The notes under the pieces were generated by a model. The model was not told the DNA's origin. It ran no database searches and was given only the letters and a program-made list of their open reading frames with translations. A stretch of DNA of 35,529 nt from Tepidisphaeraceae bacterium (GTDB lineage: Bacteria > Planctomycetota > Phycisphaerae > Tepidisphaerales > Tepidisphaeraceae). This document shows, in pieces, positions 2,276-33,277 of the stretch (its first letter is position 1; each line of letters begins with the position of its first letter). Location: assembly GCA_025450555.1 (NCBI GenBank), contig JANWHF010000345.1, forward strand, positions 1-35,529, given 5' to 3'. A program made the position numbers and the translations under genes.

Positions 2276-3598
2276 TCAGACCGGCTCGGCATCCACGAGC
2301 ATGAATTTAATATCCGCTTCGCAAGCCAGCTTATCTTCAACAAAAGCCTTGCAACGAACGTGTCCAGTGCGGCTCTTCACGCGCACCGCCACCGCTTCCA
2401 AGAGCAGTTGATCCCCTGGCACAACCGGATGTCGCATCTTCACCTTATCCATACTCAGCAGGACCGCAAGTTTCCCGGTGTGTTCCAGCTTCTGGCTTAA
2501 AAGCAGGCCACCGAGCTGAGCCATCGCCTCGACAATTAAGACGCCGGGCATGATGGGGGTGCCGGGGTAATGCCCCTGAAAGAAGATGTCGTTGAAGGTC
2601 ACGTTTTTGATGCCGACCGCCTTCTCGTCGCCCTGAATTTCCAGGACGCGATCGACCAGCAGCATCGGATACCGATGCGGCAAGATCCTCTGAATCCGGC
2701 GGATGTCCATGGCCGCATCGCGGTGGACCAACTGCTCGCGCTGATAATTGGCTTCCTGCTCGAGCAACCGCCGGGCAAGCATGTGATTGAGGCGGTGGCC
2801 GCTGCGAAATGCGATGATCCGCCCGCGGATCGGCCGGCCGACCAGCGATAGATCGCCGATCATATCCAGCACTTTGTGCCGGGCACATTCATCCGCAAAA
2901 CGGAACTGGTTCTCGATCGGCCCATCTTTAGCGATCACCAATAGCTCTTTGGGAGACAAATGCTTGCCTAGGCCGCGGGCGCGCAGCTCGCGGGCCTCTT
3001 CTTCGAAGACGAACGTGCGAGCGGGGGCAAGTTGCGAGACGAAATCATCGCCGCCCAGGCGAAAACTGAATGTCTGATGGCCGACCGGTTGAGCAGCCTC
3101 GAAATCGTAAACCAGCTCAAGCCGATCAGTGGGGCCCGGCAGGGCCGCTAAAGTCGCGCCATCGGCCGTCACCTGAACGGGCTTGCGGATGATGAGCGGC
3201 GTCAGCGCCTCTTCCTGCTCGACGACACCGGCCTCTTCAATGGCATCGACAAACCCCCGGCTGCTGCCATCGCCGCCCGGAATCTCACCGACCTCTCCGC
3301 CAGCGACCTTCACCACCGCATTGCTGATGCCCATTCCAGTCAGGGCCGCCAGGCAATGTTCGACCGTTTCGACGAATAATGTGCCGTTACGTAAACATGT
3401 ACGCCGCGGGCGGTTAAGAACGTTGGCGATCAGGGCAGGGATGGTGGCAACCTTGCCGTCCTGCTCGCGGACGAAGGTGATGCCGGTGTTGGGACCCGAG
3501 GGCGCAAAGGTGAGCGTGGCCGTCTCACCCGAGAACAGCCCGGGGCCTACAAATGATGCCTCGCGGGAAACCGTCTTTTGTCGTTCGATTACAGCCAC
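2276..3598 (-). CDS. lpxC-fabZ: LpxC-FabZ fusion: UDP-3-O-acyl-GlcNAc deacetylase / 3-hydroxyacyl-ACP dehydratase
   Basis: This is a bifunctional enzyme of 440 residues. Residues about 8-280 are LpxC, the zinc deacetylase that commits the pathway to lipid A. The zinc ligands His81 ('VETVEHCLAAL'), His241 and Asp245 ('ECARHKVLDMIGDL') are present, and so is His268 ('SGHRLN'). Residues about 298-440 are FabZ, the hot-dog dehydratase, with 'ILPHRYPMLLVDRV', the catalytic His343 in 'FFQGHYPGTPIMPGVLIVEA' and Glu357. The start is a GTG at 3598, with GAGCGGAA just upstream. The fusion is known in several Gram-negative lineages, including Bacteroidetes and planctomycetes. It is first in an operon with lpxA, so the organism is expected to make lipid A. 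Confidence 0.96.
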   Translation of the reverse strand: MAVIERQKTVSREASFVGPGLFSGETATLTFAPSGPNTGITFVREQDGKVATIPALIANVLNRPRRTCLRNGTLFVETVEHCLAALTGMGISNAVVKVAGGEVGEIPGGDGSSRGFVDAIEEAGVVEQEEALTPLIIRKPVQVTADGATLAALPGPTDRLELVYDFEAAQPVGHQTFSFRLGGDDFVSQLAPARTFVFEEEARELRARGLGKHLSPKELLVIAKDGPIENQFRFADECARHKVLDMIGDLSLVGRPIRGRIIAFRSGHRLNHMLARRLLEQEANYQREQLVHRDAAMDIRRIQRILPHRYPMLLVDRVLEIQGDEKAVGIKNVTFNDIFFQGHYPGTPIMPGVLIVEAMAQLGGLLLSQKLEHTGKLAVLLSMDKVKMRHPVVPGDQLLLEAVAVRVKSRTGHVRCKAFVEDKLACEADIKFMLVDAEPV

Positions 3599-3800: not shown

Positions 3801-3900
3801 AAAGAGCCGCGCACGAAGTAAGCGGATTCGCGGGCGCATCTCCCGGCTTACGCGGACCGCGCTCCTGCGCGCAATCCGCTTACTTCGTGCGCGGCTCTTT
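3801..3900. repeat. 100-nt element with perfect 28-bp inverted repeat
   Basis: Arms 3801-3828 and 3873-3900 are exact reverse complements over 28 bp, beginning with AAAGAGCCGCGCACGAAGTA, around a 44-nt GC-rich loop. The element sits 20 nt past the stop of the SGNH hydrolase gene and well upstream of lpxC, and may end transcription from the former. No transposase is encoded, so it may be a non-autonomous mobile palindrome. I see nothing further in 3664-3800. Confidence 0.75.
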
Positions 3901-4633: not shown

Positions 4634-5899
4634 ATGGGTGAGATTCATCGCGATCAATATGTTTCGACCGTTCGGGCCAATGTGCCGCTCTGCAGCGAGC
4701 ACTATCGGCTGGTGTTGCAACTGCCGGAATTTCCACCGACCGAGCCGGGGCAATTCATTCAGATTTCGTGTCGAGATTTGGATGTGGATTATGGGCCGGA
4801 GCATGAACTGGTGGAGCAGGATGGCCGGTGGTCGAATCCGATTGGAATGGAACTTCAATCACCGCTGGCGATACTCAGAAGGCCCTTTTCGCTGGCGGGG
4901 CGCCGGGACGTGGACGGCGACGACCCCCCTACCCAGCGACGCACCACAGCGATTCATAAAATACATGAGTTTGTCAAAGATGATTTGGAAGAACGGTGGG
5001 CCAGATTGGCCCGGGCCGGGCGCGACGTGAAGCCCGCGTCTGAAGCGACCAAAACTTTGCAATCGCCAAAGCAGATTGTCAGCGCGGATCGTGTCGAACT
5101 GGACATCATTCATCGCGTTGTCGGCGTCGGCACCGATTGGATGAGCAGGCTTAAGGTCGGTGATCGGGTTCATATTCTGGGGCCGTTGGGGAACAGATTC
5201 ACGCTACCGGCGCAGGAGCTCTCTCCCTCTCCCGGTACTCCGGGGGAAGGTCAGGGTGGGGGTCGAATGTCGGTCGCGACCCCCACCCCAACCCTCCCCC
5301 GGAGTACCGGGAGAGGGAGAGAAAGCGACGCTACGGTTGCGAGCGCCGAGAAGGATCAGCAATCCATTTTGGTCGGCGGCGGCGTGGGGATTCCGCCAAT
5401 GCTTTACCTGGCGGAAAGACTCGTGGGCCGATCGGCAGTCGCCTTCTGCGGCGCGCTGCGGCGAGATCTGCTGCCGCTGTCCATTCGCGAAGGAATCCGC
5501 GGCGTGGGTGATTCAGCACCGCGAGAGGACATCGTTGAATTTGCCCGCCATGGCGTTGCGTCGGTCATTACCACCGACGATGGCAGCTATGGATTCCAAG
5601 GCTTCGTGACGCAGGCGCTCGAGCAATACCTCGATTCGCGTGAGCCAGCCGCTGTGAAGCCGATCATCTACACCTGCGGCCCTGAACCGATGATGAAACG
5701 GGTGGCGGATATCGCGCATGCGCGCGGCATCGAGTGCCAGATTGCTGTCGAACGCGCCATGGCGTGCGGCATGGGCACCTGCCAGAGTTGCTGCATCAAA
5801 GTCCGCCGGCCCCCCGCTGCTTCAGGCGGGCGCGACTGGGTCTATCGACTGGCCTGCACCGATGGGCCGGTGTTTCGAGGGGCAGAGTTGCTTTGGTAG
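4634..5899 (+). CDS. pyrK: PyrK-like dihydroorotate dehydrogenase electron transfer subunit, enlarged
   Basis: This ferredoxin-reductase-type flavoprotein has a PyrK C-terminus. The FAD motif is 'LRRPFSLAG' (81-89), 'LKVGDRVHILGPLGNRF' follows at 173-189, the NAD-side glycines are in 'ILVGGGVGIPPMLYLAERL' (245-263), and a [2Fe-2S] set lies at Cys378, Cys383, Cys386 and Cys408 ('CGMGTCQSCC...LACTDGPVF'). PyrK passes electrons from the PyrD flavin to NAD. At 421 residues it is far longer than the usual 250 or so. About 65 extra residues follow the FAD motif (90-155), and residues about 197-230 are the in-frame translation of an inverted repeat. No pyrD lies in the window. The ATG at 4634 has no clear Shine-Dalgarno site. 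A TAGAAT 9 nt upstream would suit a leaderless message, but this is weak. Confidence 0.82.
   Translation: MGEIHRDQYVSTVRANVPLCSEHYRLVLQLPEFPPTEPGQFIQISCRDLDVDYGPEHELVEQDGRWSNPIGMELQSPLAILRRPFSLAGRRDVDGDDPPTQRRTTAIHKIHEFVKDDLEERWARLARAGRDVKPASEATKTLQSPKQIVSADRVELDIIHRVVGVGTDWMSRLKVGDRVHILGPLGNRFTLPAQELSPSPGTPGEGQGGGRMSVATPTPTLPRSTGRGRESDATVASAEKDQQSILVGGGVGIPPMLYLAERLVGRSAVAFCGALRRDLLPLSIREGIRGVGDSAPREDIVEFARHGVASVITTDDGSYGFQGFVTQALEQYLDSREPAAVKPIIYTCGPEPMMKRVADIAHARGIECQIAVERAMACGMGTCQSCCIKVRRPPAASGGRDWVYRLACTDGPVFRGAELLW
5221..5321. repeat. Inverted repeat inserted in frame in pyrK
   Basis: Two 45-nt arms, 5221-5265 and 5277-5321, are reverse complements with only a few mismatches around an 11-nt loop. 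The core is CCCTCTCCCGGTACTCCGGG. The same core recurs between genes at 9653-9774. Here it lies inside the pyrK-like frame without breaking it and encodes a Pro/Gly/Arg-rich insert ('SPSPGTPGEGQGGG') between the FAD and NAD domains. Confidence 0.9.
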
Positions 5900-9652: not shown

Positions 9653-9774
9653 CTCTACTCATTCCCGTCCCCGGTACTCCGGGGGAGGGTTAGGGAGGGG
9701 GCTTATTCAAGGCCGTTGGAATACCGCCCCCACCCCAGCCCTCCCCCGGAGTACCGGGAGAGGGAGTAAGAGAG
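9653..9774. repeat. Inverted repeat, same family as the pyrK insert
   Basis: Imperfect arms of about 50 nt (about 9653-9702 and 9726-9774) contain the core CCCGGTACTCCGGGGGAGGG and its complement. The element sits between the 5' end of the deacetylase gene and the 3' end of the large cytochrome gene. Its arms match those at 5221-5321 closely. Confidence 0.85.
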
Positions 9775-13528: not shown

Positions 13529-16500
13529 TCAGGCCTTGCTCGTTCCGGCGAGCTTCTTAAGCAATTTGGCCAGTGCGGCTTGCACTTTCTTCGCGGCCCG
13601 CGCTTGTTTGGCGGCAGCGATGCGCGCCTGCCGGGCGGCCTTCTGGGGCGCGAGGCGGGCGGCGCGGATTTCCTTATTCGTCGGCTGGGTCGCCCTCGTT
13701 TGAACCGCGGGAGCCACGACTGCACGGGCAGCCGTGGTCGTAGGGGTGGTTGTCGCCGCGGCCATCGTTGCAGGCGCCGCGGCGGGCGCGCTGGAGATGA
13801 GTCGCGCGCCCGCCCAGTCGCCGTGATCGTAATCGGGGCCGTCACCGGCATCGCCGCAGATGAGGGTGAGTTGCTGGACTCCGGTCACATCCAAATTGAA
13901 GCTTTGTGTAGCGCTGGTCGGCGTCATCACGCCGCTGTCGAAGACTTTCACGCCATCAGCGAGCACCTGGAAATCGACGGTACCATTGACGGTTTCTTCA
14001 TCATCGATGCCGACGTCGCAGAGGAAGTTGCTATAAGCGCCGCCGAGGTTGTAGACGATCTGCGAAATTGCATTGGTCCCCAACCCTTTTGCATAGGTAA
14101 CGCCATTGAGCGTAAGCGTATGGCCATCGCCCGAACCGGAGCCGCCAACGCTCATGTCTTTCTCAACCGGCCCCCAGCCGTTGGTGGCGGAGACCCAGTT
14201 CAAGTCGCTGAGATACGTGACAGTGGAAGCGGCGGCGAAGGTTGTCGCGGGTGCGACATTGCTGGCAGCCGAATCGCCCGCGCTGTTGCTGGCGATCACA
14301 CGATAGGAATAGGTCGTGCTGGCAGAGAGCCCGGTATCGCTGTAGCTGGTGGTGTTGGCGGCCAGCGTGGCGATGGTCGTGAAATTGACCCCATCGGTCG
14401 ATCGCTGGACCTTGAAGCTGCTTTCGTTGCTGGAATTGTCGGTCCAGGACAGATTGATCTGGCTGGAAGAAATCGCGCTTGCCGACAAGTTCGACGGCGC
14501 GACGGGAACGACCGGCGTCGAGCTTGGGATGAGCCGAGCGCTGGCCCAATCGCCATGATCGTAATTGGGGCCATCACCGGCGTCGCCGCAGATGAGAGTG
14601 AGCTGCTGCACGCCGGTCACGTTCAGGTTGAAGCTTTGTGTGACGCTGGTCGGCGTCATGACGCCGCTGTCGAAAATCTTGGTGCCGTCGGCGAGCACCT
14701 GGAAATCCACCGTGCCGTTGGTCGTTTCCTCATCATCGATGCCGACGTCGCAGAGGAAGTTAGTGTAAGCGCCGCCGAGGTTGTAAACGATTTGCGAGAT
14801 GGAGTTCGTACCCAGGCCCTTGGCGTAGGTGACTCCGTTGAGCGTGAGCGTATGGCCATCACCAGCGCCTTGGCCGCCGACGCTCATGTCTTTTTCAACC
14901 GGTCCCCAGCCGTTGGTCGCGGAGACCCAATTCAGATCGCTGAGATAGACCAGCGGCGCGACCGGCGTGGTCAGAGTGGCGGTATTGGTGTACGCGGAAT
15001 TTCCGCCGAGATTCGTTGCGCGCACGCGATAGGAATAGGTGGTGTTGGGCAAAACATTCGTATCGGAATAGCTGGTGACATTGGCGCCGGTCGTTGCGAT
15101 CTGCGTGAAGTTCGCGCCATCGGTGCTGCGCTCGATGAGGAAGCCGGTTTCATCGTTGGCGGCATCCTGCCAGGAGAGATTCACGCTGGTATAGCTCGGC
15201 GCGGCGGCAACCAGATTGGTCGGCGCCGTCGGCGGCGGCGAGACGGTTGTGTTGGTCAACTGAAACCAGTTGAACGTGAAGCCGGTGGCTTGGTTGCCGT
15301 TCTGGTCGTAGCTGATGCGAAGCACGTGGGCGCCGGCGGGCAGCGTGGCGGTAGTCGAGATGGTCGTCCAAGTGTTGAAGCTGCCCGTGTAAGGTACGGA
15401 AATCGGGCCAGTGACATTCTGCCCATCGCAATTGACGTGGAAGATCGGCGAAGTCGTCTGGGCATTGCCGACGCGGAAATCGATGCGATAGGTTCCGCCC
15501 TGCGCTAGGTTGATGGTGTAATCATCCCACTCGCCGGCGTAGTTCCAGCCGATGGCATAGCCGCCGCCGGTGTCGGTCGATGTCGAGACATCGACGCCCT
15601 CGGCAAGGCGATACTGGCCGCCCTGGTTCTTCGCATCGGCATCGTGATAGGCGATGCCTTCGCCGCCGTGGTTGTAATCTTCAGCTTGAATGACAGCGCC
15701 GTTGCCTGGAGCCAGGCCCCAGTACGGCGCTTCGCGGAGCGTGGGCGGTGATGTGGCCCAGGGCGAGAATGTTTCGCTGCCGCCGGAGGTCGTATACCAC
15801 TGCGACCCGGTGACAACATGACCTTCACCATAAATGGTATCGCCCGTGCCCGGCCCATCGCCGCCGGGGCCTGAAGCATTGCCCCACCAGTTATTCTGGG
15901 CATTGAATGGGCCATCATATGAATTGCCATTGATGACGAGCGACAGATGGCTGCCGTATGCGAAGGAATTGCCGTAGAAATTGTTGTAGTTGACGACGAA
16001 TCCGGAGCTGTTGCCCGGCACACCCTTGCTGTCGACCGCGACCGCCGGGCCGGTATTGTCGTAGACGGTGTTGTAGTCGATCGTGACGTTGTGGTTGTTG
16101 CCCTCGAAGCGCAGGCTGCCGCTGTACTGGTCGAGCGTATCGGTGACGTAATTGCCGGTGATGGTAATGCCGGTGGTGTTGAAGAAGAGCACCGCCTTGC
16201 CGTTGTGATCCATCACGTTGTTGGTCACGCGAATGTTGGACTGCGCATTGACGATGGAGGCTTCAAAAGCGCAGGCGGCTTCGAGGGTGGTGGTGCTGTT
16301 GCCGCCGCGATTGTTGATGAAGGCGTTGGAATCGATCGTTACGTTGGTGAGATTCCCGCCGGAGATGCCCTGGTCGGTGTAAATCCCCCGGCCACCGTCG
16401 CTGCCAGCATTGTTGTTGTTTCTAAGGAGATTGTACTGGATGATGGCAGGATCGGTGCTGCTGTTGTTGGCCAGGAAGATGCCCGAGACGTTGTTCTGGA

Positions 16501-24138: not shown

Positions 24139-24236
24139 AGCCCCGTTTATGATAGCCGCGACGCGCCAGCGGAGCGCTTTCTCAGAGCGCAGGGGAAAGC
24201 ACTCCGCTATCGCGTCGCGGCTAACTAAACGGGGCT
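24139..24236. repeat. 98-nt inverted repeat between RING and E2 genes
   Basis: Arms 24139-24180 and 24196-24236 are near-perfect reverse complements, starting AGCCCCGTTTA and including TAGCCGCGACGCG, around a 15-nt loop. It lies 15 nt past the RING gene stop and 42 nt before the E2 start. It could attenuate or process the operon transcript. The TAGCCGC core resembles the ends of the element at 1169-1313. Confidence 0.85.
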
Positions 24237-26433: not shown

Positions 26434-26504
26434 CTCGTAGCACAGCCTTCCAGGCTGTGAGTCGAAAATCACAGGCTGGAAGCGATGGAAGCCTGTGCTA
26501 CGAA
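26434..26504. repeat. GTAGCACAG palindromic repeat
   Basis: TCGTAGCACAGCCTTCCAGGCTGTG (26435-26459) faces its complement at 26470-26503. The right arm carries a small internal duplication (GGAAGCGATGGAAGC). Same family as 33223-33277 and the half-copy at 8586-8610. It lies between maf and the next gene. Confidence 0.85.
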
Positions 26505-33222: not shown

Positions 33223-33277
33223 CGTAGCACAGCCTTCCAGGCCGCGAAGAAACCACAGGCTGGAAGCCTGTGCTACG
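33223..33277. repeat. GTAGCACAG palindromic repeat
   Basis: CGTAGCACAGCCTTCCAGG (33223-33241) faces CCACAGGCTGGAAGCCTGTGCTACG (33253-33277). It lies between the convergent sugar ATPase and dnaA genes, where it can act as a bidirectional terminator. Same family as 26434-26504. Confidence 0.88.

Follow-up and report, generated by a model that had tools for sequence, protein, structure and literature searches.

A dispersed palindromic element read in frame between the FAD and NAD domains of a PyrK-like protein from Tepidisphaeraceae

Reviews describe Rickettsia palindromic elements (RPE) as palindromes of 105–146 bp that lie in frame within conserved genes (PMC2229807, PMC10969869), and one of them states that an RPE-bearing guanylate kinase of Rickettsia was shown to be active (PMC2229807). 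RPE and the protein-coding palindromes of Wolbachia are credited to Ogata et al. (2000, 2002, 2005), as cited in PMC2229807, PMC10969869, and PMC3733652. Di Nocera and colleagues listed intragenic REPs, which were most numerous in Opitutus terrae and R. conorii and of which more than half form dimers or groups that encode 20–30 residues; according to these authors, the surviving intragenic REPs may occupy linkers and loops (PMC3733652). In-frame fusions have also been reported for ERIC and the 107-bp Correia element (PMC2229807, PMC10969869). The locus described here places protein-coding palindromes, which were first seen in Rickettsia, in a GC-rich lineage of another phylum, with five genes affected in one incomplete genome.

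The window, i.e., the whole stretch of DNA that was analyzed (35,529 nt), is contig C345 of a Tepidisphaeraceae genome assembly (G000; 3.56 Mb, 58.5% complete, 357 contigs). The ORF at 4634–5899 matched PF10418 (DHODB Fe-S domain, E 6.5e-12) and the PF00175 NAD domain. Its nearest solved relatives by sequence were the PyrK subunits 5ksw_B and 1ep1_B (PDB), and 5ksw_B was also the top Foldseek match for the predicted fold (E 3e-15). The FAD, NAD, and Fe-S motifs and the PyrK Fe-S domain, which are expected of a PyrK, were all found in this ORF. The NCBIfam equivalog score was 113 bits, under the cut-off of 224, and the protein is therefore called PyrK-like. The gene and the repeats have the following layout.

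4634–5899, plus strand: intact 421-aa ORF of the PyrK-like gene (dihydroorotate dehydrogenase electron-transfer subunit).
4877–4900, plus strand: FAD-binding motif RRPFSLAG, intact, at invariant or nearly invariant columns.
5372–5401, plus strand: NAD-domain motif VGGGVGIPPM, intact, at invariant columns, beginning 15 nt past the insert.
5750–5794, plus strand: Fe-S motif ERAMACGMGTCQSCC, intact, at invariant columns, within PF10418.
5220–5322, unstranded: palindromic element core of two inverted REP-like arms (5220–5265 and 5277–5322).
5225–5250, unstranded: REP-like unit 1, small palindrome CCCTCTCCCGGTACTCCGGGGGAAGG.
5292–5317, unstranded: REP-like unit 2, small palindrome CCCTCCCCCGGAGTACCGGGAGAGGG.
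9658–9770, unstranded: intergenic copy of the element, with a histone-deacetylase-family gene on one side and a DUF7133/HEAT/cytochrome c gene on the other.

The repeat in pyrK is, as the original prediction held, an inverted repeat; its measured length is 103 nt instead of the predicted 101 nt. The repeat is near-perfect, its 46-nt arms being 93% complementary on either side of an 11-nt spacer, and a smaller palindrome of 26 nt (CCCTCTCCCGGTACTCCGGGGGAGGG-like) lies within each arm. The RNA fold of the repeat had an energy of -100.9 kcal/mol (z -12.1 against dinucleotide shuffles), which was equaled by 0 of 200 shuffles, and the intergenic copy folded with equal strength. Within the window, the core pattern gave 8 matches on both strands, with 0.00 expected, and these fell solely on the pyrK site and the intergenic copy, which agrees with the claim that the two share a core. 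An Rfam search of the window gave no matches.

Further repeats were observed in the same window. A second palindromic family, the CACAGCCTTCCAGGCTGTG-type repeat, occurs at 26436–26459 and 33254–33277, and elsewhere in the genome it also adjoins or sits inside copies of the element (contigs C111, C177, C356, and C7). At 3801–3900, between LpxC/FabA-type and GDSL genes, a loop of 44 nt separates the perfectly matching 28-nt arms of an inverted repeat, perhaps another palindromic family. At 24142–24234, a 40-nt inverted repeat with 80% complementarity is flanked by two ORFs. Two 300-nt direct repeats (13787–14086 and 14519–14818), 83% identical and 732 nt apart, lie within a long ORF.

The genome has relatives in 21 other genera of the same family, and we compared the PyrK-like protein with homologues from inside and outside the family. 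The homologues of the relatives matched the protein piecewise only, at residues 1–93, 151–195, and 240–421, and two insertions were located by alignment.

5219–5356, plus strand: net in-frame insertion of 46 codons (138 nt, residues 196–241) relative to the closest relatives, by protein alignment, with the empty site in loci L056 and L057 of the sister genus.
4910–5080, plus strand: second lineage-specific insertion, 57 codons in the FAD domain (residues 93–149), by alignment with homologues.

The ORF is uninterrupted through the repeat, which contributes LSPSPGTPGEGQGGGRMSVATPTPTLPRSTGRGRE to the protein, as expected from the claim that the reading frame is kept. Residues 196–241 were present in none of the 25 aligned homologues, a few of which are partial. 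At the empty site, the DNA of the sister genus reads CTGCCGGCGAAGGAA joined directly to GGACTGGCC; in the present gene, 138 nt separate CTACCGGCGCAGGAG from CAATCCATT. The empty site indicates that the gain of 46 codons comprises the 103-nt palindrome and approximately 35 nt on its right, and these 35 nt show only a loose likeness to the element's outer end. The addition foreseen in the original prediction, about 34 Pro/Gly/Arg-rich residues, was thus right in being in frame and too small when set against the relatives. From the sequence, the insert would yield the tryptic peptide MSVATPTPTLPR. That these residues are ancestral and were lost by the relatives, with the likeness to the repeat arising from convergent composition, is scarcely credible: the homologues that lack them come from both within and outside the family, and the pyrK copy shares 78–88% DNA identity over approximately 100 nt with other copies in the genome (E down to 2e-30). 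The insertion at 4910–5080, which the original prediction does not mention, was considered as a second copy of the repeat; this was rejected because it is single-copy, with no other copy found in the genome. It contains a helix (residues 102–127) in the structure model.

An AlphaFold model built from 19 sequences (mean pLDDT 71.5) gave pLDDT values of approximately 31–46 and no secondary structure for residues 194–238, and values of 74–93 for the flanking blocks. The final FAD-barrel strand (178–185) precedes this stretch, and the initial NAD-domain strand (243–249) follows it; the model strands and the fold match agree in placing the insert between the two domains, as originally proposed. The insert is accordingly predicted by the model to be a disordered linker.

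Counting the copies of the core, a check attached to the original prediction, revealed a dispersed family of approximately 39 copies in the 58%-complete genome, 27 of them paired and 12 with a single arm. The element core spans approximately 105–140 nt, and copies that retain the outer inverted ends GTGACACAATCGGCG...CGCCGATTGTGTCAT reach approximately 165–190 nt in total. Terminal inverted repeats of this type were found at many copies; both are present in the copy on contig C12, and they are eroded in the pyrK copy. By DNA search (E 1e-6), the element was detected in 17 of the 26 genomes that belong to the family and in none of the 35 that represent other families of the class, and a search of a plasmid collection gave no match. 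An exact 39-mer scan of named genomes, from which near relatives may be left out, gave one contig, from a MAG labelled Proteobacteria. On this 5-kb contig (JAFEDO010000151.1), a near-perfect paired copy lies at 3131–3260 of locus L132; it may reflect horizontal spread or misbinning.

At least five genes carry the element in frame: pyrK, cinA, a sugar ABC ATPase gene, and the genes for a PD40 protein and a membrane glycosyltransferase. These cases are ORFs that run through element copies with homology on both sides. Copies that lie at the ends of genes or precede probable starts (contigs C201, C326, C216, C98, C111, C356, and C144) were kept outside the intragenic count, and the five compared genes do not include the copies on C79 (one arm, in a melibiase-family protein), C177 (position 7765, in another frame near the C-terminus), and C220. 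Clean empty sites were found in relatives for four of the five genes (pyrK, cinA, the ABC ATPase, and the glycosyltransferase). In cinA, the insert splits the C-terminal CinA domain, the Pfam match ends at 124/155, and the relatives join IALA directly to GDREMIRDR. In the two-domain sugar ABC ATPase, the insert lies in the linker between the ATPase domains, and in the PD40 protein it lies in a linker that varies among relatives.

These cases bear on the suspicion that the assembly is chimeric, with two loci joined at the repeat and an artefactual in-frame junction. An assembly of 357 contigs with dispersed repeats, which are typical join points, invites this suspicion, and two copies on C220 have the same flank in opposite orientation, which looks suspicious. 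Against this, the two sides of the repeat in pyrK are collinear halves of one gene, in the same frame and closest to the same relatives, and the same holds independently in the other four genes; a random join would not be expected to give this five times. We regard a chimera as very improbable.

The left arm is read in one frame in all five genes as a PSPGTPGEG-like segment (LSPSPGTPGEGQGGG, VPSPGTPGEGQGGG, IPSPGTRGEGHGGG, TPSPATAGEGWSGG, and IPSPGTPGEGQGGG). With equally open frames, this agreement has a chance probability of approximately 0.004, a value from small numbers and a post hoc comparison. The frame used is no poorer in stop codons than the others (27/54 open versus 57/108). The idea that the element is unusually stop-free was rejected, since 84 of 162 frames were open (52%), compared with 49% for random 105-mers of the window. 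In the other two frames, the pyrK copy would encode SLPLPVLRGKVRVGV, which is hydrophobic and basic, and ALSLSRYSGGRSGW, and the shared frame plausibly reflects selection against them.

Repeats were also observed at these genes in other genera. In the cinA of another genus (G004, locus L105), a low-complexity repeat (SSFIVHRS, then a stop) lies at the palindrome's loop; the gene ends early, with the last ~35 residues of the CinA domain replaced. In the PD40 linker of the sister-genus genome G001 (L135, 1470–1650), a further palindromic repeat family is read in frame (TGVPPV...HGRDARVT), and this family gave 97 matches on both strands, at roughly fifty places in that genome.

The dispersion of the copies and the empty sites lead us to infer transposition, presumably by an enzyme acting in trans. 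The Y1_Tnp genes (PF01797) on contigs C31 and C130 make poor candidates for a RAYT as the mover: they are flanked by unrelated inverted repeats of their own, with no element copy adjoining. The search for a mover covered the 58%-complete assembly, from which approximately 40% of the genome is missing, and it found no transposase with matching ends; the pattern of the element's ends matched once, within the C12 copy of the element itself. No target duplication was obvious at the full-length copies, and one candidate was located at the pyrK site.

5201–5207 and 5328–5334, plus strand (left copy): ACGCTAC, possible 7-nt direct repeat.

Approximately 0.06 such matches are expected by chance, and removal of this repeat together with its interior (127 nt) would shift the frame.

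We consider it highly probable that a small mobile element, palindromic and non-autonomous, has left one copy in pyrK and that this copy is now a coding linker in a gene kept by selection. The element, made of two inverted REP-like units, would have entered the PyrK-like gene once this lineage and the sister genus had separated. As the total gain is divisible by three and contains no stop, the gene now encodes 46 additional residues, a Pro/Gly/Ser-rich and probably disordered linker that joins the FAD barrel to the NAD domain; selection would have maintained the remainder of the enzyme. The original description of an intergenic repeat becoming coding sequence is right in that the repeat is coding; a mobile palindrome that lands anywhere and survives in genes if the frame is kept describes the case better.

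The gene could instead be a recent pseudogene, destroyed or being destroyed by the insert and still open by chance. Among the 27 paired copies, the pyrK copy has the arms that resemble each other most closely (40/44), which argues for a young insertion and might have left no time for decay, and the same protein carries the second insertion of 57 codons. Against the sister-genus genome G022, dN/dS was 0.09 for the part of the gene upstream of the insert and 0.08 for the part downstream; these values are rough, with dS near saturation, and if the insertion is young, most of the constraint that they record is older than it. The PyrK-like protein keeps the residue at each of the 64 columns where the other 18 sequences in the alignment (A1) show no variation, the FAD, NAD, and Fe-S motifs on both sides of the insert are intact as had been claimed, and the ORF shows no frameshift or other sign of decay. 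Of the two outcomes that the original prediction named as refuting it, relatives with the same residues and a frameshifted, dead gene, neither was observed. The frame is also kept in all five conserved genes that were compared with relatives. A dying gene is thus improbable; judged by the dN/dS values, the invariant residues, and the structure model, pyrK looks alive, and the enzyme may well retain catalysis.

The sister genus carries an in-frame insertion of its own in pyrK, at a third loop (after EKYLDA/ERYLDG), derived from other dispersed repeats with tens of copies.

1028–1165 of L056 and approximately 860–1000 of L057 (minus strand in L057): sister-genus pyrK insertion, repeat types GGGTTCAGGGTTCAGG, AAATCTCAAATTTCAGA-like, and TCAGTCCTCAGTCC.

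Within this insertion, whole-codon differences separate G022 from G001, and constraint is relaxed (dN/dS approximately 0.44 over 42 codons). The repeats at this loop bear on whether the present insert is in service, i.e., whether the linker, or the very stable mRNA hairpin, has been selected for a role such as translation pausing between domains or a new contact surface. The hairpin lies exactly between domains in both PyrK and the ABC ATPase, as such a role would have it. The insert is confined to one genome and hence shows no conservation, and the use of other repeat families at another PyrK loop by the sister genus looks like tolerance and not function; selection for the insert is therefore a decidedly improbable reading. 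A broader conjecture, to which we give little credence, is that several unrelated palindromic families independently lengthen the same loops and linkers (PyrK, CinA, and PD40) and that some of the linkers or hairpins are selected. If this were true, dispersed repeats would be a standing supply of disordered linkers in this bacterial family.

The pyrK insert stands as a comparative and well-supported case of a phenomenon that is known but under-sampled. Its added interest lies in the frequency of such cases in one genome and in the parallel gains of repeats in the same genes of the sister genus, which together offer a comparative system for the rate at which repeats become protein and for the positions and frames that are tolerated. 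In annotation, stretches such as SPSPGTPGEG and TPTLPRSTGRG should be recognized as repeat-derived.

The size and copy number, the in-frame occurrence in unrelated genes whose orthologues lack the element, and the common frame are those of protein-coding palindromes. Like RPE and the Wolbachia palindromes, the element is approximately 100–190 nt long and dispersed, with copies in intergenic DNA and, in frame, at tolerant protein positions of unrelated conserved genes. It differs from RPE, which belong to obligate intracellular bacteria, in its GC-rich lineage of a different phylum and in its two REP-like units. Homology to the RPE families, which were compared by description, is unlikely given the phylum and the composition. 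For RPE, an enzyme carrying the element (guanylate kinase) was shown to be active, whereas activity of the PyrK-like protein is a prediction. Like REPINs and BIMEs (PMC3116915), the element consists of two short inverted palindromes that form a long hairpin with a variable spacer, and it occurs as singlets and pairs in tens of copies; like the intragenic GTAG/CGTC REPs (PMC3733652), some of its copies lie inside genes. Unlike REPINs and REPs, it has no adjacent RAYT in the 58%-complete assembly and has longer outer terminal inverted repeats, and the aligned copies do not share a GTAG or CGTC tag at any fixed position of the unit. The size, the terminal inverted repeats, and the lack of a transposase gene resemble those of MITEs (ERIC, Correia/NEMIS, and RUP; PMC2229807, PMC10969869); no partner insertion sequence was found for the element in the 58%-complete assembly, and removal of the candidate target duplication at pyrK would shift the frame. 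The element therefore functions like RPE and intragenic REPs and has a REPIN/MITE-like anatomy. Given the lack of a GTAG/CGTC tag and of an adjacent RAYT in the assembly, together with the MITE-like ends, we class it as a new family within a known phenomenon, that of protein-coding palindromic elements.
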